A stretch of DNA of 64,000 bases, taken from positions 558,001 through 622,000 of the forward strand of contig NZ_LNQS01000008.1 of the NCBI RefSeq assembly GCF_001513785.1, read 5' to 3'. This document shows, in pieces, positions 35,109 to 45,812 of this stretch (the stretch's first letter is position 1; each line of letters begins with the position of its first letter). The notes beneath the pieces are model-generated. The model did not search any database. It had not been told where the DNA came from and saw only the letters and a program-made list of their open reading frames with translations. The DNA comes from Rheinheimera sp. EpRS3. GTDB taxonomy: Bacteria > Pseudomonadota > Gammaproteobacteria > Enterobacterales > Alteromonadaceae. A program made the position numbers and the translations under genes.

Positions 35109-36491
35109 TTAAACGACGACGTTATCGTCAGCACGAAACAGTAAGCGAAACTGCAACCCCGGCTGCATTTTATGGGCTGATAACGCCCAGCCATGAGCCC
35201 GGGCAATTTCGCGGCAAATGGTCAGGCCAAGCCCGGCTCCAGTATCGCGCTTGTGCGCGCCGCGCCAGAAGCGGTCGAACAACTTTAGTAATTGAGCGTC
35301 TTCAATACCCGGGCCGTGGTCGCGCACGGTGATATTGTCAGAGAACACATCTACCGACACAGCACTGCCTTCAGGCGCATGTTGTATGGCATTTTCCAGC
35401 AGGTTTTTTAACAGGGTAAATAATCCGCCCTTATCAGCCTGTAACAAAATGCCGGTAGCATGCAGTTCCAGATTAAGCTTAACCTTTGCAGTGTCTGCCA
35501 TGCGTTGCAGGTAGGCAACGGCCTCTGCTACCTGTTGCGGCATATTGACCCGGATAAACTTGTAGTTCTGCCGTTCACTGGCCTCTGCCAGCAATAACAA
35601 TTGCTGCACCTGACGCGACATATAACTGACATCATGCAATAACCAGTTACGCTGTTCTGTCTCTGGCATCAATTCAAGTTGGGCGCGGATTAATGCTAAT
35701 GGGGTTTTTAGTTCATGCGCAGCGGTGGCCAGAAACTCCTGTTGTACACGATAACCATGCTCCAACCGCTCAAGTGCCTGATTAAAGCTGTTTACCAGGG
35801 GCGTAAGCTCGTTAGGCACGCCTTTAACCGGCAGACGAACATCCAGAGAATAAGGAGAAATAGTGGACGCAGACTGAGAGATATCTTTTAGCGGCCTTAG
35901 GGTATAGCGCAGAGTAATGTAAGCGAACAAACCGAAAGCAAGCAACGACACCACACTAAACAGCGTAACACCAGCACCCACCAGCGGCAGTGCAATATGG
36001 CGATGCATAAGCTCCATAAACCTTGTGCTGGCGGTAAGCTGCAAATACCAGATTTTACCATTGTGCATAATTGGCTCAGTTGCTCCATGCATAGTAAGCC
36101 CATTATGCTCAAAATCAAACCGGCCGCGCACCAGGCTGAGCAGTTCTTTGCTCTGTGGCCAGACTGACTCGCCGGTGCCTGATTGCAACACCACGTTACC
36201 GGCCTCGTCCAGTACCCGGTACGCCGTTTCACGCGAGATACTGTCAAACAACCATGTTACATCCTCTACTTTCGCAGCAAATCCAATCGGCGTACCTTCG
36301 TCATCGTACCTGATATCATCTGCGATCCCGGCAGCGGCATCTGCCAGGTCCATTCTGGCAAGCGTATTATCTTGCAACACCCAAACCGCAGCCAACACCA
36401 GCAATGTTACGCTCAGAATCATCCCGCCGAGATACGACAGTAATACCTGCAGTCGTAAACTATTGAAATGACGCATCGTCACGAAGCGCAT
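35109..36491 (-). CDS. Sensor histidine kinase of the MipA/RND locus
   Basis: This 460-residue inner-membrane kinase pairs with the response regulator just upstream. Two transmembrane helices (about 15-37 and 160-190) enclose a periplasmic sensor domain of about 120 residues; a HAMP linker, HisKA with AAHELKTPLALIRAQ and the HATPase boxes (NLLENAIQHA, DHGPGI, GAGLGLTICREIARAHG) follow. The ATG at 36491 has GAGG eight bases upstream and overlaps the regulator gene by 32 bases; an internal ATG at 36476 lacks such a site. The signal is unknown. Confidence 0.92.
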   Translation of the reverse strand: MRFVTMRHFNSLRLQVLLSYLGGMILSVTLLVLAAVWVLQDNTLARMDLADAAAGIADDIRYDDEGTPIGFAAKVEDVTWLFDSISRETAYRVLDEAGNVVLQSGTGESVWPQSKELLSLVRGRFDFEHNGLTMHGATEPIMHNGKIWYLQLTASTRFMELMHRHIALPLVGAGVTLFSVVSLLAFGLFAYITLRYTLRPLKDISQSASTISPYSLDVRLPVKGVPNELTPLVNSFNQALERLEHGYRVQQEFLATAAHELKTPLALIRAQLELMPETEQRNWLLHDVSYMSRQVQQLLLLAEASERQNYKFIRVNMPQQVAEAVAYLQRMADTAKVKLNLELHATGILLQADKGGLFTLLKNLLENAIQHAPEGSAVSVDVFSDNITVRDHGPGIEDAQLLKLFDRFWRGAHKRDTGAGLGLTICREIARAHGWALSAHKMQPGLQFRLLFRADDNVVV

Positions 36492-37146
36492 AGCCTATAC
36501 CTCTTATATTTACTATCCGCTGCTGCGAACCAATGGCCTGCAATTTGCGCCGTATCCGATGTAAGGCCACATCCAGTGCATTGGGTGTAACTGCCTCGCT
36601 AAAGCCCCAACCGGCGGCTTCCAACGCACTGTGGCGCACCGATTCATTACATCTACGCACCAGCAATAGCATAATTTGCATTTCGGCCTGCGCCAGTATC
36701 TCGCTTTTATCACCACAGCACATCAGGCTGTCGGCCGGGCGCAAAGTTAAATCACCACATTGCGGCGCCAGCGAGCGAACTTCCGCCGGCCGGCGCAGCA
36801 GCGCCCGCACCCGCGCCAGCATTTCTTCCATGGCAAAAGGCTTGGCCAAATAGTCATCAGCGCCTGCATCTAGCCCTTCAACCCGATCGTTTAGTGCGGT
36901 GCGTGCAGTTAGTACAAGACAGGGAATAGTATTGCCCGCCTCGCGCAAACGCCGCAGCAACGATAAGCCATCACCGTCCGGTACACCGCGGTCAATCACC
37001 AATGCCTGATAAGGCACTTGCTGTAAAGCAAGCCAGGCATGGTCAATACGGCTGAAAACGTCGGCGACAATACCAGCCTGTGCCAGCCCTTCGCATATCA
37101 GCCGGGCTAAACGCTCGTGATCTTCAAGTAACAGAATACGGTTCAT
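36460..37146 (-). CDS. OmpR-family response regulator (QseB/PmrA-like)
   Basis: The 228-residue regulator has a receiver domain with acidic pocket LLLEDHE and phospho-acceptor Asp52 (VIDRGVPDGDG), Lys in KPFAMEE, and a C-terminal OmpR-type winged helix (NALDVALHRIRRKL, then RGIGYALR). It lies between mipA and the kinase gene: the mipA stop overlaps its ATG (ATGA) and it overlaps the kinase start. The direct repeat CTTACC-N5-CTTACC at 38039 has the 11-base period such regulators bind. Confidence 0.94.
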   Translation of the reverse strand: MNRILLLEDHERLARLICEGLAQAGIVADVFSRIDHAWLALQQVPYQALVIDRGVPDGDGLSLLRRLREAGNTIPCLVLTARTALNDRVEGLDAGADDYLAKPFAMEEMLARVRALLRRPAEVRSLAPQCGDLTLRPADSLMCCGDKSEILAQAEMQIMLLLVRRCNESVRHSALEAAGWGFSEAVTPNALDVALHRIRRKLQAIGSQQRIVNIRGIGYALRDDASFQ

Positions 37147-37967
37147 CAGAAGCTGTAAATATAACCGAGCATCAGCCGGTTTTCTGTTGAGCTGTCTACC
37201 AGAGGGCTGTCTTTGATTTCTGACGCCAGGCTGGTAACGCTAACATCCAGAAACACAAAATGCTTTTGCTTAAACATATAGCCCCCACGTGCGCCTACCT
37301 CAATATTTACCGCAGACTCACCCTGATAATAAGCTCTGTCAGCCGTCACTTCATTGGCGCGCACACCATAGTAGTAATCGACATACTTTTTATCCAGTAA
37401 GCTCACCATCACCCGCGGGGTAAACATAAACTGTTGTTTAAAATGCCAGGTTCTCTCTACAGCAAAATTAAATGCACTGCCTTCGCTGTCGCCAGCCACC
37501 TCAGTAACATATTCGGCACTGATATCAGCCAGGCTGTTTTGCCATTCTGCTTTAAAGCCCGCCCAGAAACCACCATCGCGATCCTCCATACCATTAAGAA
37601 TTGGCGCATCGTTTTGTTCGTAGTCGGTAAAATCATATTTGCCGATAATACTGAAATTAATTTTATTCGACTCGCTAAACTGATAACCCGGCAACTTAAC
37701 TGCCAGCTCCGGCCCGGCCAGCCGGATATAACGGTTTTCGTAGCTCAGTATCGGTAATACCTTATTATCACGGTCAATATCAGTATAAGCCTTCTGGCTG
37801 GTGACGACTGCCAACCCCAGCCCCCAAGATGACTCAGATGAATCATCATCTACTTGCTGTGCCGTAACAGCCAAAGGTAAACCTGCTCCAAGCAGCATAA
37901 ACGAAGCCGCAACAGTGCGGGTAATTGCCGTTTTCAAATAAGGCACAGTTGAGATCACTAAGCGCAT
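37146..37967 (-). CDS. MipA/OmpV family outer-membrane protein
   Basis: The 273-residue protein from the ATG at 37967 (AGGAAG before it) is a MipA/OmpV beta-barrel. It has a signal peptide (ending VTAQQ near residue 37), then alternating beta-strands, including WGLGLAVVTSQKAYTDIDRDNKVLPILSYE shared by the family in spirit, and ends in an aromatic residue (YIYSF), as outer-membrane barrels do. Some relatives scaffold murein enzymes, others respond to antibiotics or osmotic change. It heads the operon mipA-regulator-kinase, divergent from the RND efflux genes. Confidence 0.9.
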   Translation of the reverse strand: MRLVISTVPYLKTAITRTVAASFMLLGAGLPLAVTAQQVDDDSSESSWGLGLAVVTSQKAYTDIDRDNKVLPILSYENRYIRLAGPELAVKLPGYQFSESNKINFSIIGKYDFTDYEQNDAPILNGMEDRDGGFWAGFKAEWQNSLADISAEYVTEVAGDSEGSAFNFAVERTWHFKQQFMFTPRVMVSLLDKKYVDYYYGVRANEVTADRAYYQGESAVNIEVGARGGYMFKQKHFVFLDVSVTSLASEIKDSPLVDSSTENRLMLGYIYSF

Positions 37968-38038
37968 AGATAACTTCCTTTCAGGTGATGTATAGGTGGC
38001 GTTGTATGTAAAAACAGCCTCCATCATCCACCGCCTGA

Positions 38039-38055
38039 CTTACCTAAAACTTACC
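38039..38055 (+). promoter_or_regulatory. Candidate response-regulator operator (CTTACC-N5-CTTACC)
   Basis: Two exact CTTACC hexamers sit 11 bases apart in the 183-base gap between mipA and the RND genes. OmpR-family regulators bind as head-to-tail dimers to hexamer repeats of this period, as PmrA and QseB do. Its place between the two divergent operons suggests that the adjacent regulator controls both. Confidence 0.5.
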
Positions 38056-38150
38056 AAAACATTTTTTTGTTGTTTTTGCGTCAGTAAGTTTGCTGAAAGG
38101 CAACTTGCCGGACAGTAGCTGCTATACCCGGTAAAATAAGGAAGCAGAAA

Positions 38151-39329
38151 ATGAAAAGGTCACACCAGGTTGTTTTAATTGCCACCGTGTTCGTAGTGGC
38201 AATTACTGCAGCCATTGTCATCGCTGCTGATGGCGCTGATACGCCAGCAAACACCCCCAGCATTGCACCCGCTAAACCCACACTGACAGTTAACCTAACT
38301 ACACCGCAAGTTATGGTGTTGCCGCTGACAATATCAGCCAATGGCAATATCAGCGCCTGGCAGGAAGCCATTATCGGTAATGAAACCGAGGGTTTAAGGC
38401 TGGAACAGGTAAACGTGAACGTAGGTGATATCGTACAGCGCGGCCAGGTGCTGGCAACCTTCGCCAAAGATACGGTTAAGGCAGAACTGGCGCAAAGCCA
38501 GGCTGCAGTGGCAGAAGCCGAAGCGGTGCTGGCCGAAGCAGCCAGCGACGTAAAGCGTGCTACTGAATTGCAAGCCAGCGGGGCGCTGTCAGCACAGCAA
38601 ATTCAGCAATACCGCACCACAGAAAAGACCGCCCAGGCCCGACTTAAATCGACACAAGCTGATTTGGACACCCAACAACTCCGCCTGAAACAAACTCAGG
38701 TGCTGGCACCGGACAACGGCATAATTTCTGCCAGAACCGCCACTGTCGGGGCAGTGTTGCCGGTAGGTCAGGAATTGTTCCGGCTGATCCGCGGCAACCG
38801 GCTGGAGTGGCGGGCAGAGGTGTCAGCACAAGATCTGGCAAAGCTGCAGCCGGGGCAAGTGGTGCAGGTTACGCCTGTCGGCGGTAACACTATTACAGGT
38901 TCACTGCGCATGGTGGCACCGGTAGTAGATACCCAAACCCGTAACGCTTTGGTTTATGTTGACCTGCCTGTTGATAACGCCACCCGGGCCGGCAGCTTTG
39001 CCCGCGGCCAGTTTGAGCTGGGTGCGACGAGGGTGCTAACACTGCCACAAAGCGCCGTGCAACTGCGCGACGGTTTTAGCTATGTGATGCGTGTGGGCAC
39101 GGATGCCAGAGTGATACAAACCAAGGTAAGTACCGGGCGGCGCACTGCTGAGCTGGTAGAAATTACCAGCGGTATTACGCCTGCCGATCAGGTGGTTGCA
39201 GCAGGCGGTGCCTTCCTTGGTGATGGCGATTTGGTGCAGATTGCCTCCCGGCAACCCGACGCACAGCAGCCTGCAAAACCCAGCGCGACAACAGCGGCTT
39301 TAACCGCGCCATCAGACGACGTGATGTAA
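38151..39329 (+). CDS. RND efflux periplasmic adaptor (membrane fusion protein)
   Basis: The 392-residue protein links an RND pump to an outer-membrane channel. It has an N-terminal signal anchor (residues 7-26), a split lipoyl/barrel-sandwich domain (GLRLEQVNVNVGDIVQRGQVLATF near 82-105 and LAPDNGIISARTATVGAVLPVGQELF near 184-209), and between them an Ala/Gln-rich coiled-coil hairpin (about 106-180). No Cys lipobox is seen. It is followed by the pump gene after 14 bases; no outer-membrane channel gene is present nearby. Confidence 0.92.
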   Translation: MKRSHQVVLIATVFVVAITAAIVIAADGADTPANTPSIAPAKPTLTVNLTTPQVMVLPLTISANGNISAWQEAIIGNETEGLRLEQVNVNVGDIVQRGQVLATFAKDTVKAELAQSQAAVAEAEAVLAEAASDVKRATELQASGALSAQQIQQYRTTEKTAQARLKSTQADLDTQQLRLKQTQVLAPDNGIISARTATVGAVLPVGQELFRLIRGNRLEWRAEVSAQDLAKLQPGQVVQVTPVGGNTITGSLRMVAPVVDTQTRNALVYVDLPVDNATRAGSFARGQFELGATRVLTLPQSAVQLRDGFSYVMRVGTDARVIQTKVSTGRRTAELVEITSGITPADQVVAAGGAFLGDGDLVQIASRQPDAQQPAKPSATTAALTAPSDDVM

Positions 39330-39343
39330 AGCCGGAGTATAAA

Positions 39344-42300
39344 ATGAATTTGAATATCTCTACCTGGGCCATACGCAACCCTACGCCGGCTATCCTGCTG
39401 TTTATTTTGCTGACCTTTGCCGGAATTTTTAGTTTTCGCGCGATGAAAGTGCAGGATTTACCTGATCTGGATTTACCCACAGTTACGGTAACAGTCGAGC
39501 TGCCGGGGGCTTCACCGTCACAGCTTGAAACCGATGTAGTACGTAAAATCGAAAGCTCTCTGGCTACCGTGCAGGGCGTTAAACATATTTACAGTAATCT
39601 GACCGATGGTGAAGCCGGTATTTCGGTGGAGTTCCGGCTGGAGCGTTCAATACAGCAGGCCGTTGATGATGTGCGTGATGCGGTATCGCGCATCCGGGCC
39701 GATCTGCCGTCAGATTTGCGCGATCCGGTAATAAAAAAGCAAGAATTATCCGGCTCACCTATTCTGACTTACAGCCTGAGCTCAGCACAAATGGATAACG
39801 AAGCCTTATCCTGGTTTGTTGATAACGATATCAGCAAAACCCTGCTGGCGGTCAGAGGTGTCGGTGCTATCACCAGAGTGGGTGGCGTTAACCGGGAAAT
39901 ACGCGTTGATTTGGATTTTGCCAAACTGCTGGCATTTAATACTACGGCTGCCGATATTTCCCGCCAGTTACAACTGGTGCAGCAGGAAGCTGCCGGCGGC
40001 CGTGCCTATTTTGGCGGTATGGAACAATCGGTAAGAACCATTGCTACCGTGCAGTCGGCTGAAGAATTCGCTGCGATGGAAATTACGTTAACTGATGGCC
40101 GCCGGCTGCGGCTGGACCAGATAGCCACAGTGTCTGACACCTTAGCAGAGCAACGTTCTGCGGCCTTTCTTAACGGCGAGCCGGTGGTGGGCTTTGAGAT
40201 AACACGCGCCATCGGTTACGGCGAACTTGAAGTTGCAGAAGGAGTGCGTGCCGCACTGCAGCAGCTACAAACACAGCGGCCGGATATTAGCGTAACAGAA
40301 GTATTTAACCTGATTGACCCGGTAGCCGAGAATTATGCCGGCTCCATGCAGCTACTGTATGAAGGTGCCTTGCTGGCAGTATTAGTGGTATTTCTGTTTT
40401 TACGCGACTGGCGGGCCACCTTTATTTCTGCACTGGCACTGCCTCTGTCTATCATTCCCACCTTTTGGCTGATCCATATGATGGGCTTTTCGCTCAATAC
40501 CGTCACCTTATTATCGCTATCGCTGGTAATTGGCGTGCTGGTGGACGATGCTATCGTTGAAATAGAAAACATTGAGCGCCACTTGCTAATGGGCAAAACG
40601 CCGTTTAAGGCCGCTATGGAAGCTGCCGATGAAATTGGCCTGGCAGTGGTTGCCACTACCTTTACCCTGGTAGCAGTATTTCTACCCACCGCCTTTATGA
40701 GCGGTGTAATCGGCAAGTTCTTTGTGCAGTTTGGTTGGACAGCAGCTATAGCAGTGTTATTTTCCCTGCTGGTGGCCCGGCTACTTACGCCGATGATGGC
40801 TGCCTATCTGCTGCGCTCACCTGAGCAGAATAATAAACAGCAGATTAAACCGGAGCCGGGCTGGGTTCGCTACTACCTGCATCTGGTCACCTGGTGCTTA
40901 CAACACAAAGGCACAACCCTGAGCGCTGCGGCGGTATTTTTTGCTGGTGGTATTATGCTGGCGATGGCACTGCCCGGGGCTTTTATGCCAGCAGATGACA
41001 ATCAGCAAACTCAGGTTACGCTTACGCTGCAGCCCGGCACTAAGCTGCAGAATACCATTGCCCTGGCTGAACAGGCGCGCCAGATACTGCAGCAAAATGA
41101 GCATGTAAAACAAATTTACACCGCTATCGGCAGTGGCAGTTCCGGTGCATCAGATAACACTGGCAGCACAGCAGCCAGCGTGCGCTCTGCAGTGCTGACA
41201 CTTAGCCTGACCCATCGCAGTGAGCGGGCTGGTTTACACAAGCAACAGATTGAACAGCAATTACGCGAAATGTTAAGCGCCCTGCCCGGCGCCAGAATTA
41301 AAGTGGGTATGGGCGGAAACGAAAATTATATGCTGGTGCTGGCCGGCGAAGATAGCCGCATACTGCAACAACATGCGCTGCAGGTAGAGCGCGAGCTTCG
41401 GGCTATCCCGGGCATTGGCGCTGTCACTTCCAGCGCCAGCCTGGTCCGGCCGGAGCTGATTGTTACCCCCGACTTTGCCCGCGCAGCCGACCTTGGTGTA
41501 ACGTCATCGGCGATTGCCGATACACTGCGGGTTGCCACCGCCGGCGACTATGAGCAGAATTTACCCAAGCTTAACCTGAGTGAACGCCAGGTGCCGGTAG
41601 TGGTGCGTCTGAATGATATTGCCCGCGAAGACTTTGACACCTTTAAACGCTTACCGGTACCCGGCGCCCGCGGCCCGGTAGCACTTGAAAACGTCGCCAG
41701 CCTGGAAATAGGCAGCGGCCCGGCTGAAATCGCCCGCTTTGACCGGATGCGCAATATCAACTTTGAAATAGAGCTAAACAACCTGCCACTGGGTGTGGTT
41801 GAGCAGGCCGTATTGGCGCTGCCAAGCCTGCAAGCTCTGCCACCGGGCGTATCCCAAACTACACTGGGCGATGCAGAAATGATGGGCGAACTCGCCAGCG
41901 GTTTCGCCGTGGCCATGTTAACCGGCGTATTCTGTATTTATATGGTACTGGTACTGCTGCTAAAAGATGTTGTTCAACCGGTCACCATTCTTGCTGCACT
42001 GGTGCTATCGGTACCGGGGGCCTTTCTGGCGCTGTTTTTAACCAATGCCGCACTGTCGCTACCGGCGATGATTGGCTTAATCATGTTAATGGGCATCGCC
42101 ACCAAAAACTCTATCCTGCTGATTGACTACATCATCATTGCCAGACGCGATCACCAGCTAAACCGCTGGGACGCCGTTATCGACGCTTGCCGCAAACGAG
42201 CGCGGCCAATAGTGATGACCACTATTGCCATGGGCGCCGGCATGATGCCGATCGCCTTAGGTATGGGTGGCGACCCCAGCTTTCGCGCACCGATGGCAAT

Positions 42301-42433
42301 TGTCGTGATTGGTGGCCTTATCACCTCAACCTTCCTTAGCTTGCTAGTAATACCGGTGGTGTACAGCTGTGTCGATGATGTCGTGCAATGGCTAAAACCG
42401 CGTTTGCACCGTTTTTCACCGCTTAACCACTAA
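39344..42433 (+). CDS. RND efflux permease (HAE1-type)
   Basis: The 1029-residue inner-membrane pump is a typical resistance-nodulation-division antiporter that exports drugs or other toxic compounds with proton uptake. It has 12 predicted helices in two halves with large periplasmic loops. In helix 4 the proton-relay pair is intact (GVLVDDAIVEIEN, near residue 400), and the family sequence LPDLDLPTVTVTVELPGASP near residue 40 is clear. It is more like MexQ/MdtBC-type members than AcrB, by eye. The substrate is unknown; control by the adjacent two-component system is inferred. Confidence 0.94.
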   Translation: MNLNISTWAIRNPTPAILLFILLTFAGIFSFRAMKVQDLPDLDLPTVTVTVELPGASPSQLETDVVRKIESSLATVQGVKHIYSNLTDGEAGISVEFRLERSIQQAVDDVRDAVSRIRADLPSDLRDPVIKKQELSGSPILTYSLSSAQMDNEALSWFVDNDISKTLLAVRGVGAITRVGGVNREIRVDLDFAKLLAFNTTAADISRQLQLVQQEAAGGRAYFGGMEQSVRTIATVQSAEEFAAMEITLTDGRRLRLDQIATVSDTLAEQRSAAFLNGEPVVGFEITRAIGYGELEVAEGVRAALQQLQTQRPDISVTEVFNLIDPVAENYAGSMQLLYEGALLAVLVVFLFLRDWRATFISALALPLSIIPTFWLIHMMGFSLNTVTLLSLSLVIGVLVDDAIVEIENIERHLLMGKTPFKAAMEAADEIGLAVVATTFTLVAVFLPTAFMSGVIGKFFVQFGWTAAIAVLFSLLVARLLTPMMAAYLLRSPEQNNKQQIKPEPGWVRYYLHLVTWCLQHKGTTLSAAAVFFAGGIMLAMALPGAFMPADDNQQTQVTLTLQPGTKLQNTIALAEQARQILQQNEHVKQIYTAIGSGSSGASDNTGSTAASVRSAVLTLSLTHRSERAGLHKQQIEQQLREMLSALPGARIKVGMGGNENYMLVLAGEDSRILQQHALQVERELRAIPGIGAVTSSASLVRPELIVTPDFARAADLGVTSSAIADTLRVATAGDYEQNLPKLNLSERQVPVVVRLNDIAREDFDTFKRLPVPGARGPVALENVASLEIGSGPAEIARFDRMRNINFEIELNNLPLGVVEQAVLALPSLQALPPGVSQTTLGDAEMMGELASGFAVAMLTGVFCIYMVLVLLLKDVVQPVTILAALVLSVPGAFLALFLTNAALSLPAMIGLIMLMGIATKNSILLIDYIIIARRDHQLNRWDAVIDACRKRARPIVMTTIAMGAGMMPIALGMGGDPSFRAPMAIVVIGGLITSTFLSLLVIPVVYSCVDDVVQWLKPRLHRFSPLNH

Positions 42434-42629: not shown

Positions 42630-42700
42630 AAAAACAATATGTTAACTCTGCGTGATGAATTTAAAGGCTATATGCTTAAATACAGCCATATTGGTGATTG

Positions 42701-43633
42701 ATGAAAACTGCTATGACAATAGGTGCGGTGCTGCCGCTTAAAGTAACCGGCAGCTACGGTGTCGACGATTTAAACCGGGCGCATATTTTATTTAGCTCAC
42801 TGCAACGCTTTGCTGAGCCAGGCTTGTTCAGTGAATTTTATGTGGTGGTACCTGCTGCTGAAGTGGAACAAGTCAGTTCGGCCTTTGCCCGCTGGCAGTC
42901 GCTGGGTATTCAGGTGATATCTGAAGACACCCTGGTGCCGGAGCTGGCAAAGTATCCCAAAATGCGCGGTTGGCGTAAGCAGCAAATCGTTAAACTGGCG
43001 ATAGCCGCAAAAATGCAGGCAAAATTTTATTTAACCTTTGATGCCGATGCTATTTGCCTGAAACCCTTAAGCGCAGAAAAACTTATTATTGATGGCAAAG
43101 CCTTGTTGCAATACGAACAGCGCGCCCAGCACCCCAAATGGTGGAAGGCGTCTGCCCGTATCTTAAAAATGAATGCCAACGTTGGCGATCCGCAACTGGG
43201 CATGACAGTAACACCGGCTATTTTGGCTACTGATATTGTTAAAAGCCTGATACAACAACTCACGCCAAAAACAACGCAACAAAGCTGGGTAGACTGGCTA
43301 TGCCAGTTACATTTACCTAAACACCCGAAAAACTGGCTGCTGCACCGGTTTTTAATGCTGAAGTGGACTGAATATTCGCTGTACTACCTGTGCGCCCATA
43401 AGCTGGGATTACTGGATAAATACCATGTTACCGCCGGCACCGCCGAGCTGCCACAGCGATTGCTGGTGCATGAGTCTCACCCTTACGAGCAGTGGGATGT
43501 TGCGCGCAGTTTCAGCAACAACTGCCCGGGTTTATTTTGTGTTGTTGGCAGTAAAACCTTTTTACCCCCTGCAGAGGTATGGCAGAAGGTAAGGCCCTTC
43601 ATTGCAACGCAGCAAAATACCGGGCCTTTATAA
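42701..43633 (+). CDS. DUF6492-like putative glycosyltransferase
   Basis: The 310-residue cytoplasmic protein looks like a GT-A-type sugar transferase of the DUF6492 group: MRGWRKQQIVKLAIAAK is followed by YLTFDADAICLKPL, whose DAD is a likely metal and nucleotide-sugar motif, and later by the WTEYSLYYLCA helix and a His-rich LVHESHPYEQW. A TTG at 42698 precedes the ATG chosen here. It does not belong to an operon with other surface-polysaccharide genes. Substrates are unknown. Confidence 0.68.
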   Translation: MKTAMTIGAVLPLKVTGSYGVDDLNRAHILFSSLQRFAEPGLFSEFYVVVPAAEVEQVSSAFARWQSLGIQVISEDTLVPELAKYPKMRGWRKQQIVKLAIAAKMQAKFYLTFDADAICLKPLSAEKLIIDGKALLQYEQRAQHPKWWKASARILKMNANVGDPQLGMTVTPAILATDIVKSLIQQLTPKTTQQSWVDWLCQLHLPKHPKNWLLHRFLMLKWTEYSLYYLCAHKLGLLDKYHVTAGTAELPQRLLVHESHPYEQWDVARSFSNNCPGLFCVVGSKTFLPPAEVWQKVRPFIATQQNTGPL

Positions 43634-43644
43634 CGGACCACAAC

Positions 43645-43663
43645 GCCGGGCTAATACCCCGGC
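43645..43663 (+). terminator. Weak terminator after the DUF6492-like gene
   Basis: GCCGGG and CCCGGC form a 6-bp GC stem with a 7-base loop, 12 bases after the stop codon, followed by TATTGTT rather than a full T-run. Confidence 0.4.
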
Positions 43664-43857
43664 TATTGTTCAGCATAACTTAAGCTCAAAACGACAAAAT
43701 AGCCCCATACCCTGGTGCTATAGCGGCGGGCAGATTTCAGCGTTAACACAGCCTTAGTTGTAATTAAGATAACAGCTTAATTACAAAGTCACACAATCTG
43801 CCACCAATCACCGCTTTATATTACCGCCAATAAATACAATGCGCAGCGGTGTAACTG

Positions 43858-44655
43858 ATGATCCCGAAAATAATTCATTATGTCTGGGTAGGCAATGCGC
43901 CCAAGCCCGAACTGGTACTCAAATGTATTGCCAGCTGGAAAACTCACCTGCCCGACTATCAGATTGTAGAGTGGAATAACGACAGCGTGCATGCGCTGGA
44001 CAATACCTATATGCAACAGGCTTTTGCGGCCGGTAAATGGGCTTTTGTTTCTGATTATCTGCGACTTTACGCTTTACAGCAGTACGGTGGCTTCTACTTT
44101 GATACTGATCTGGAAATTACTGCAGATCTTGATGCATTCCGCCAGCATGATTTTGTTACCGGTTTTGAACAGTTTAAAAAGCGTCTGGCTCCGGTAACGG
44201 CATTAATGGGCGCCACCGCCAACAATCCAGTGATCCGGCAACTGCTGCAACCTTATACCAGCAAGCAATTTATTAAGGCTGACGGCCAGTTTGATTTAAC
44301 ACCGAATACCGGGCTGATCAGTGATATTTTTGCCGCAAAGTTTGGCCTAGTTAAGCCCTACAACGCCAATCATATTAACAAACTGACAGACAACGCCTTT
44401 ATCTACCCCAGCCATTACTTTTGCACGCCAGAGGCGGGCAAACCCGGTTATGCCATTCATCACTTTAATGGCTCATGGTTTGAAGAGTACAGCCGTAAAC
44501 TACTGTTTAGTATCAAAGAATATAAATTTATCCGCTTAAAGCGCAACAAAATACGCTCGGCATTACTACCATTACAAAGCGGTGAAACTAAAATATGGCA
44601 GTTAGGCTTAAATGCCAGATACAGCCTGTTAGTTGTGCATAGCAGCCATAGTTAG
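43858..44655 (+). CDS. GT32-like glycosyltransferase (Gly_transf_sug family)
   Basis: The 265-residue protein carries the signature of OCH1/GT32-like sugar transferases found in bacterial capsule and lipopolysaccharide synthesis: IPKIIHYVWVGNAPKP at the start, WAFVSDYLRLYALQQYGGFYFDTDLEI with the DxD motif near residue 82, and AIHHFNGSWF near residue 200. It is cytoplasmic and ends in a basic tail. It stands alone on the plus strand, 224 bases after the DUF6492-like gene; the gap contains only the weak hairpin listed at 43645. Confidence 0.85.
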   Translation: MIPKIIHYVWVGNAPKPELVLKCIASWKTHLPDYQIVEWNNDSVHALDNTYMQQAFAAGKWAFVSDYLRLYALQQYGGFYFDTDLEITADLDAFRQHDFVTGFEQFKKRLAPVTALMGATANNPVIRQLLQPYTSKQFIKADGQFDLTPNTGLISDIFAAKFGLVKPYNANHINKLTDNAFIYPSHYFCTPEAGKPGYAIHHFNGSWFEEYSRKLLFSIKEYKFIRLKRNKIRSALLPLQSGETKIWQLGLNARYSLLVVHSSHS

Positions 44656-44840: not shown

Positions 44841-45812
44841 ATGGCGTTTATCAATGAGTTGTTGAACGGCGATTTTATGCCGCATGGCCATTGTTTGTTA
44901 TGGCGTACCGATTTATTGCTGCTACATGTGGGTGGCGATACGCTGACATTTATCGCCTACATGCTGATCCCGATAGCCTTGATAAGGCTGGTCAGGGCAA
45001 GGGATGACCTGCGCTTTGACTGGATGTTTCTGCTATTTGCCGGTTTTATTTTTTTCTGCGGCGCCACCCATATTCTCGGCATTATCAATGTCTGGCATGG
45101 CTATTACTATATTCACGGCATTATAAAGTCGATGACCGGCATTATCTCCATTCTGACGGCAATATTACTCTGGTACTTGCTGCCGCAGGCGATAAGCTTG
45201 CCCGGCAAACGAGCTATGGAGGCTAAAATTGTCGAACTGATGCGGGCTGAACATGAGCTGGCAGCATCAAACCAGCGGCTGGAAGCTGAGGTAAAAAAAC
45301 GTACTGCACAGCTGGAAAAAATGGCCACCACTGATGAACTGACAGAGCTGTTAAACCGGCGCGAAATTATGCGCCTGCTTGAGCTGGAGATTGCCCGCGC
45401 TGATCGCCAGGGTACTGCGCTGAGTATTATGATGCTGGATTTGGACCACTTTAAGGCGATAAACGACAGTTATGGCCATCAGGCCGGCGATCGCGCATTA
45501 AAAAATGCCGCAGAAAACTTTAAACAACAGCTGAGGAAGACCGACTTTATTGGCCGTATTGGCGGCGAAGAGTTTCTGGTTCTTTTGCCCGACACCGGTA
45601 TCAGCAGTGCTTGCGTGCTTGCCAACCGCATTCGTCAGGCTTTGGAACAGCAAACCACCGACAACTCTGCAATACCAAGCTGCACCGCCAGCATAGGGGT
45701 GACGCAATATATCGCCCCTGACGATCTGCACAGTTTAATTCAGCGCGCCGATGAGACCCTGTATCAGGCAAAATCCAATGGCCGTAACTGTGTGTATCAG
45801 TCACCAGCCTAA
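44841..45812 (+). CDS. Diguanylate cyclase with ETR1-like copper/ethylene-binding domain
   Basis: The 323-residue protein should make cyclic di-GMP. Residues 25-115 form three membrane helices that match the plant ethylene receptor ETR1: Asp33 (GGDTLTFIAY), then Cys73 and His77 (FFCGATHILG). ETR1 uses Asp25, Cys65 and His69 around its Cu(I); the spacings (40 and 4) are identical. A coiled coil (about 125-160, VELMRAEHELAASNQRLEAE) leads to a GGDEF domain with the active GGEEF at 241-245 and an inhibitory RxxD site (RKTD, 232-235). The output thus looks functional and feedback-inhibited. Whether ethylene, copper or another small ligand is sensed is unknown. Confidence 0.9.
   Translation: MAFINELLNGDFMPHGHCLLWRTDLLLLHVGGDTLTFIAYMLIPIALIRLVRARDDLRFDWMFLLFAGFIFFCGATHILGIINVWHGYYYIHGIIKSMTGIISILTAILLWYLLPQAISLPGKRAMEAKIVELMRAEHELAASNQRLEAEVKKRTAQLEKMATTDELTELLNRREIMRLLELEIARADRQGTALSIMMLDLDHFKAINDSYGHQAGDRALKNAAENFKQQLRKTDFIGRIGGEEFLVLLPDTGISSACVLANRIRQALEQQTTDNSAIPSCTASIGVTQYIAPDDLHSLIQRADETLYQAKSNGRNCVYQSPA

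Follow-up and report, generated by a model that had tools for sequence, protein, structure and literature searches.

The closest described systems are the ethylene receptors of plants and bacteria, which share an ethylene-binding domain (EBD). For plant ETR1, one copper per monomer and intermolecular disulfides formed by residues 4 and 6 are reported (PMC6586836), and it has been inferred that D25 positions H69 and contacts K91 (PMC11819568). Among bacterial proteins, residues 1-130 of AzoEtr1 fused to GST bind ethylene when produced in Pichia, and both ethylene and loss of the receptor lower biofilm in Azospirillum brasilense (PMC11819568). In Synechocystis, ethylene is reported to raise biofilm (PMC6682694, PMC11819568). 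Published bacterial EBD proteins carry output domains of many kinds (PMC7700396), and in the literature searched the case nearest to the one described here is from cyanobacteria, where an EBD gene is grouped with a second gene that encodes a diguanylate cyclase domain (PMC6682694). The original prediction for our locus, made from its sequence, held that receptors of this type are known from plants and some cyanobacteria. This is too narrow, given ethylene binding by Azospirillum AzoEtr1 (PMC11819568) and ETR1_N domains in 49 of the 196 family genomes that we searched. Bacterial EBDs thus look widespread and of a known kind, while the short direct fusion of an EBD to a GGDEF domain looks little studied: we found no description of it in the literature searched, and reviews may already list the architecture.

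Such a fusion lies in the DNA that we analysed, a window of 64,000 nucleotides from Rheinheimera sp. EpRS3. The open reading frame originally proposed for it was confirmed exactly, and its parts are as follows.

44841..45812, + strand: EBD-GGDEF gene, ATG start, 323 amino acids (open frame, Pfam, alignment with relatives, dN/dS)
44883..44903, + strand: N-terminal motif H15-G-H-C18-L-L-W21, predicted periplasmic, outside the Pfam model (conserved 18 residues before D33)
44907..44999, + strand: TM1, residues 23-53, with D33 (codon 44937-44939), Y40, I43 and P44 (AF2/DSSP, conservation)
45018..45095, + strand: TM2, residues 60-85, with I70, C73 (45057-45059) and H77 (45069-45071) (AF2/DSSP, conservation)
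45105..45197, + strand: TM3, residues 89-119 (89-118 in the EBD-only model), with K96 (AF2/DSSP, numbering against AzoEtr1)
45207..45329, + strand: predicted signalling helix or coiled coil, residues 123-163 (AF2 helix, heptad-like pattern, constant length, fold matches to GCN4-WspR and DgcB)
45324..45788, + strand: GGDEF diguanylate cyclase domain, residues 162-316 (PF00990, 154.6 bits)
45534..45545, + strand: RKTD inhibitory (I) site, residues 232-235 (motif reading)
45561..45575, + strand: GGEEF active-site motif, residues 241-245 (motif reading)

We predict that this protein is a one-component Cu(I)/ethylene receptor with cyclic di-GMP (c-di-GMP) output, a reading to which we give a probability of roughly 60%. 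Its domain identity is almost certain. The ETR1_N model (PF25487) matches residues 25-120 with 110.2 bits against a cut-off of 27 (E = 6e-32), and the GGDEF model (PF00990) matches residues 162-316 with E = 2.5e-45, values that make a chance assignment of the two domains untenable. The proposed fusion of an ETR1-type domain to a GGDEF domain with canonical motifs therefore stands, borne out by the Pfam matches, key residues, constant spacing, purifying selection and AF2 helices. The GGDEF domain follows the EBD, with no Pfam match to a GAF or histidine kinase domain in the 323 residues. Both cyclase motifs named at the outset are present, RKTD lying five residues upstream of GGEEF, together with LDLDHFKAINDSYGHQAGD from residue 199, SIGV, and ADETLYQAKSNGRN from residue 303. 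The roles of these motifs are general knowledge for GGDEF domains, and the RxxD I-site is found in many diguanylate cyclases, if not all. With its canonical motifs, the domain is very probably a working cyclase.

The metal-site residues agree equally well with characterized receptors. D33, C73 and H77 are spaced by 40 and 4 residues, as had been pointed out for ETR1, and the spacings equal those of D25/C65/H69 in AtETR1 and D35/C75/H79 in AzoEtr1, as checked against the published residue numbers (PMC11819568). The local wording that had been noted (CGATH and IAY..IP) is there as CGATH and IAYMLIP, and K96 is the equivalent of AzoEtr1 K98 and ETR1 K91. Residues Y32, I35, P36 and I62 of ETR1, which we take to be needed, have their equivalents Y40, I43, P44 and I70 all in place. 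Across 154 aligned EBDs, C73 is conserved in all 154, H77 in 152 and D33 in 148, and the ethylene-pocket residues are nearly as constant (Y40 in 150, I43 in 142, P44 in 136, I70 in 147). From these residues we expect with good confidence that the EBD binds Cu(I), and we regard ethylene as its probable physiological ligand.

Structure prediction agrees with an ETR1-type domain. A full-length AF2 model was made from an alignment of 80 rows (A1) and an EBD-only model from one of 72 rows (A2), a relative with N stretches (L111) being excluded from both. The full-length model (mean pLDDT 88.3, pTM 0.58) has helices at residues 23-53, 60-85, 89-119 and 123-163, followed by the GGDEF fold; the EBD alone reaches a mean pLDDT of 89.4 and a pTM of 0.76. 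We infer that the three EBD helices are inserted in the membrane. The TM1-TM2 loop is rich in arginine (R52, R54, R58), which suggests that it is cytoplasmic and the N-terminus periplasmic. Counted along the AF2 helices, 10 residues separate D33 from the outer end of TM1, while H77 and C73 are 8 and 12 residues from that of TM2, so that the three would sit at similar depth. GGDEF proteins run throughout the best 50 of 449 fold matches to the full model, with GCN4-WspR first and the coiled-coil DgcB among the top. When the EBD alone was compared with the PDB, there was no fold match at E <= 0.001 and no significant sequence match.

Covariation gives an indication of the helix packing. Mean-field DCA was run on 253 rows (Neff 192, 5356 pairs) and repeated on the 229 rows that keep all motifs; the best of five column shuffles, taken as noise level, scored 2.07 for all rows (exceeded by 13 real pairs) and 2.76 for intact rows (exceeded by 10). 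Antiparallel TM1-TM2 pairs (41-75, 37-78, 26-84) and parallel TM1-TM3 pairs (50-117, 25-90, 29-93, 28-97, 32-100) exceed the shuffle maximum, and they stay at the top when intact rows alone are used. The TM1-TM2 register is predicted to set D33 approximately opposite residue 80, within one turn of H77, in agreement with the inferred D25-H69/K91 arrangement of ETR1 (PMC11819568). This position of D33 rests on the register of its neighbours, since its own pairs fall below the shuffle maximum: D33-76 ranks 26 of 5356 with all rows and 68 with intact rows, and D33-K96 ranks 33 and 37. At the level of AF2 helix positions and covariation register, as distinct from interatomic distances, we saw no fold that would separate D33, C73 and H77.

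A further conserved element, HGHCLLW (residues 15-21), precedes TM1 and escapes the Pfam model, whose match begins only at residue 25. HG.C..W is found in 231 of 249 distinct EBDs, cyanobacterial ones included, and invariably 18 residues before D33; nine of 258 EBD frames had been dropped from this count (D33 unaligned, or fewer than 20 residues upstream), which puts the worst case at 231 of 258. It reads HGVC in the A. brasilense Sp7 frame (L228) that fits AzoEtr1, and it is wholly absent from three cyanobacterial GGDEF frames (L293, L295, L296). Its retention in the 80 loci found by pattern proves nothing, because the search patterns included DFMPHGHC. The genome sets found with Pfam are the fairer sample, as the ETR1_N model starts after the motif. 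In these, before cyanobacterial loci were added, H15 is kept in 93, C18 in 92, C73 in 94 and H77 in 92 of 94 distinct rows. Three of 157 rows had been dropped for scoring below 60 bits (L143, L144, L170), all without the motif, so that H15 stands at 93 of 97 in the worst case; the weak Pfam places L136, L145, L147 and L171, below or just above the cut-off, gave no usable frame. A literature text search met the string PHGHC in no paper, and since figures are unsearchable the motif may still have been published.

We hypothesize that HGxC is functionally linked to the C73/H77 site. The motif is present in 229 of 234 EBDs with both C73 and H77, and in 2 of the 15 that do not have both (these 15 include one truncated frame). 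In raw counts, the H15/C18 pair is lost in 12 of 14 broken EBDs and in 5 of 234 intact ones; the truncated L297 was left out of the column count and the phylogenetic test. The motif is not strictly needed for an EBD to persist, since five (L167, L247, L284, L302 and the phage protein L229) keep C73/H77 without it. Co-loss was tried as proof of a single metal site and was set aside, being not significant after phylogenetic control. Four supported independent pairs gave a mean of 2.5 in the same direction, 1.0 in the opposite direction and 0.6 without difference, and the reverse test, on six pairs, gave 1.8, 1.0 and 3.2, again not significant. Loss per column in the 14 degenerate EBDs ranges from 1 to 11 (H15 9, C18 9, P14 10, I70 11, T99 9, T106 9), and as these domains have also lost further conserved positions, general decay accounts for much of the pattern. 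The same holds for covariation with C73 (18-73 at rank 32 and 15-73 at rank 44 of 5356, all rows), which stems from the degenerate rows, the H15/C18 and C73/H77 columns being constant and hence uninformative in intact ones.

Two neighbouring positions are of more use for placing the segment. Positions 19 and 20 covary with position 90 (ranks 15 and 9 with all rows, 16 and 7 with intact rows; only 20-90 beats the shuffles), which puts the HGxC segment on the outer side, at the loop between TM2 and TM3. The AF2 models do not place it confidently, given pLDDT below 50 at residues 10-15 in the full-length model and a mean of 59 at residues 11-20 in the EBD alone. HGxC may be a periplasmic copper-entry site. 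A more specific proposal, which we consider doubtful, is that HGxCxxW forms a second metal element over the mouth of the known site, where it would take up periplasmic Cu(I) and either pass it to C73/H77 or add ligands in the dimer. Plants would then have exchanged it for Cys4/Cys6 once RAN1 delivered copper; the intermolecular disulfides of ETR1 residues 4 and 6 lie in the region of the bacterial motif (PMC6586836).

In the mechanism that we envisage, by homology to ETR1, a dimer would hold Cu(I) at C73/H77, with D33 placing H77, and the copper would reach the site from the periplasmic side. Binding of ethylene or a similar small ligand to Cu(I) would shift TM3 and the coiled coil, alter how the two GGDEF domains pair and so change c-di-GMP output, with product inhibition at RKTD. 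By analogy to AzoEtr1, we lean towards ethylene lowering cyclase activity, since there both ethylene and disruption of the receptor cut biofilm. Eight PilZ matches lie above the cut-off in the host genome, two of them in equal-length frames close together on one contig, one with an internal stop; the PilZ proteins include candidate c-di-GMP readers. The effect of the cyclase could be local or small, as the genome holds many GGDEF matches: 48 matches to the whole protein including itself, nearly all via GGDEF. Two Cu-ATPase loci above the cut-off could supply periplasmic copper, an argument that is weak because 13 of 14 control genomes have such ATPases too.

Would copper itself be the signal? 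The EBD might be a periplasmic copper sensor, in which Cu(I) filling HGxC and C73/H77 would switch the cyclase and ethylene would be irrelevant. The thiol and imidazole residues H15, C18, C73 and H77 are nearly invariant among the collected EBDs, and ETR1 is reported to be rigidified by Cu(I) itself (PMC12643061). An RND pump and a HlyD/CusB-type adaptor are encoded upstream, the pump standing beside the gene in L040-L043 and L050 as well; this pump, however, fits multidrug RND models better than CusA/CzcA, each score being below cut-off. The reported Cu(I) affinity of ETR1, ~1e-15 M, suits a permanent cofactor better than a sensor, and the ethylene-pocket residues Y40, I43, P44 and I70 are largely conserved too. 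We consider this alternative unlikely. Somewhat less likely still is that ethylene is a minor ligand and that the small gas or alkene sensed at the Cu(I) site is a different one (CO, NO, O2 or propylene). Sequence searches do not separate such ligands, and Rheinheimera is mainly aquatic, with no evident plant source of ethylene, yet the residues match those of AzoEtr1, a bacterial EBD shown to bind ethylene.

A cyclase that is constitutively active, its membrane part a mere anchor or in decay, would suit the 14 of 31 genus genomes with no above-cut-off gene; the constraint on the EBD makes it very improbable. Against eight of the 20 named relative loci, picked for gap-free comparison, EBD dN/dS was 0.040-0.063 in six; the two comparisons with the lowest dS, L043 and L050, gave 0.098 and 0.173. 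The linker and cyclase gave 0.093-0.203, so that the EBD value was below that of the cyclase half in seven of eight. All seven key residues (D33, Y40, I43, P44, I70, C73, H77) are intact in each of the 23 GGDEF-bearing alignment rows. A one-component receptor in which Cu(I) is the cofactor and ethylene the ligand is the reading that we prefer.

The host genome (4.40 Mb, 14 contigs) has ETR1_N in this gene only, and the nearest named EBD, that of R. pacifica, is 98% identical. ETR1_N matched above cut-off in 17 of 31 genus genomes, where every match sits in an open frame (322-352 aa). The order sample gave 13 of 295 and the phylum sample 28 of 398; these three samples and the family set overlap. 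The cyanobacterial sample gave 44 of 146, and none of 14 control genomes had a match. The lack of an above-cut-off match in the remaining 14 of the genus indicates that the gene is dispensable. One genus genome without an intact copy has a weak sub-cut-off ETR1_N trace with four TGA (L136, G196:C26:277555-277758), either a remnant or chance.

Of the 20 nearest named loci (L040-L059), 19 have the fusion and one, L056, runs off its contig; the GGDEF motif pattern is found in none of 60 others (L060-L119, of which at least L071 is cut by a contig end). Pfam assigned 16 relatives as six EBD-GGDEF proteins, seven with HisKA and HATPase_c, one with PAS only and two (L137, L176) with ETR1_N alone. 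The last two, with L181, L182 and L183, are short EBD proteins (frames of 185-230 aa), possibly partner subunits. Of 258 EBD frames that differ over the domain end, 32 carry GGDEF: 23 from the family and close relatives, Rheinheimera, Arsukibacterium and Paraglaciecola among their sources, and nine from cyanobacteria. The distances from HGxC to CGxxH (58) and from CGxxH to GGEEF (168) are the same in all 22 complete family-type fusions. A tree of EBDs only was built from 248 rows, 29 of the 32 GGDEF frames among them; in it the 23 short EBD-GGDEF sequences form one clade with moderate support (SH-aLRT 85). Parsimony requires five changes of the GGDEF trait, with support of 13 to 96 at the other placements, so the coupling probably arose more than once. 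A short cyanobacterial EBD-GGDEF protein (L283, G972:C8:147155-147439; 357-aa frame with HGSC, CGIGH and GGDEF, linker 25 residues shorter) branches beside the Rheinheimera-type clade with support 83. Other cyanobacterial EBDs are degenerate, without C73 and/or H77 and often without H15/C18 (L278, L279, L281, L282, L286, L288-L292), and several of these genomes also carry intact copies.

Neither plasmids nor phages offered a source for the gene. The 18 plasmid records are EBDs of 35.5-51.4% identity whose products, in the records that annotate them, are of PAS or kinase type, none a near copy, and the phage matches are eight Maribacter phage records at 34.6%. In Maribacter phage Molly_1 (L229:2872-3741; Molly1_65, QQO97550.1), a hypothetical protein encoded between tail-protein and amidase genes has ETR1_N at 60.9 bits against the cut-off of 27. 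It keeps CGIGH, but D33 is replaced by N and HGxC is missing; the match recurs in all eight Molly/Colly records listed. The only viral fold match below 0.001 is a BFVD model of 289 aa (A0A8E4UZR7), which may be this protein. An ethylene-binding-type domain borne by a phage would be unusual.

Neighbouring genes were tried as a functional clue and gave no clear hint, synteny holding in 6 of 23 compared loci only (~5 kb per side, E 1e-20, two of the loci duplicating others). These six, L040-L044 and L050, keep all or some of the series RND, two glycosyltransferase-like genes, EBD-GGDEF, SGL, MetAP. The other 17 loci share no window neighbour at that threshold, except an SGL relative on the opposite side in L057; matches to the window's chemoreceptor-type gene below 50% identity were not counted. 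Directly upstream of our gene (window 42698-44655) are a DUF6492 gene and a DXD-sugar-transferase-like gene, a pair that recurs beside the gene in L043 and L050 and is absent at the other 21 loci. Further upstream (35109-42433), genes for a HATPase-bearing sensor kinase, a 228-aa frame, a MipA-like outer membrane protein, a HlyD-type adaptor and an RND pump stand in a row. A scan for promoters and terminators gave no more signals than shuffled sequence.

If our reading is correct, a single protein of 323 residues lets a gas receptor of the plant-hormone type control a bacterial second messenger with neither kinase nor response regulator in between. The protein would then be a simple test bed for signal transfer by Cu(I) and ethylene, since both ends can be assayed and no solved structure matches the EBD significantly by sequence or fold. 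Ethylene, which comes from algae, plants and light-driven chemistry, would become a candidate cue for the biofilm choice of aquatic bacteria. The HGxC motif makes it possible to ask, by specific mutations, how bacterial receptors acquire copper.

Among the closest known systems, AzoEtr1 resembles our protein in its sensor. The A. brasilense Sp7 EBD, in a frame that fits the AzoEtr1 residue numbers, shares 43.6% identity across residues 12-121. Its D, C, H and K are spaced alike and it has HGxC (HGVC in the matching frame), and AzoEtr1 influences biofilm formation (PMC11819568). Its output, in contrast, is PAS, histidine kinase and probably a response regulator, whereas the Rheinheimera protein has GGDEF and no phosphorelay. 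SynEtr1 (Slr1212) of Synechocystis is a bacterial ethylene receptor as well, and ethylene affects biofilm there too (PMC6682694, PMC11819568). The plant ETR1 family shares the three-helix domain with matching spacings of D, C and H, but differs in having GAF, kinase and, in some members, receiver domains, in its location in the ER membrane, and in the disulfides of residues 4/6 (PMC6586836) where bacterial EBDs have HGxC. On the output side, cyclases of the WspR, DgcB, SadC and SiaD type, among the top fold and sequence matches, likewise join a helical or coiled-coil segment to GGDEF, and they have a different sensor domain or none.
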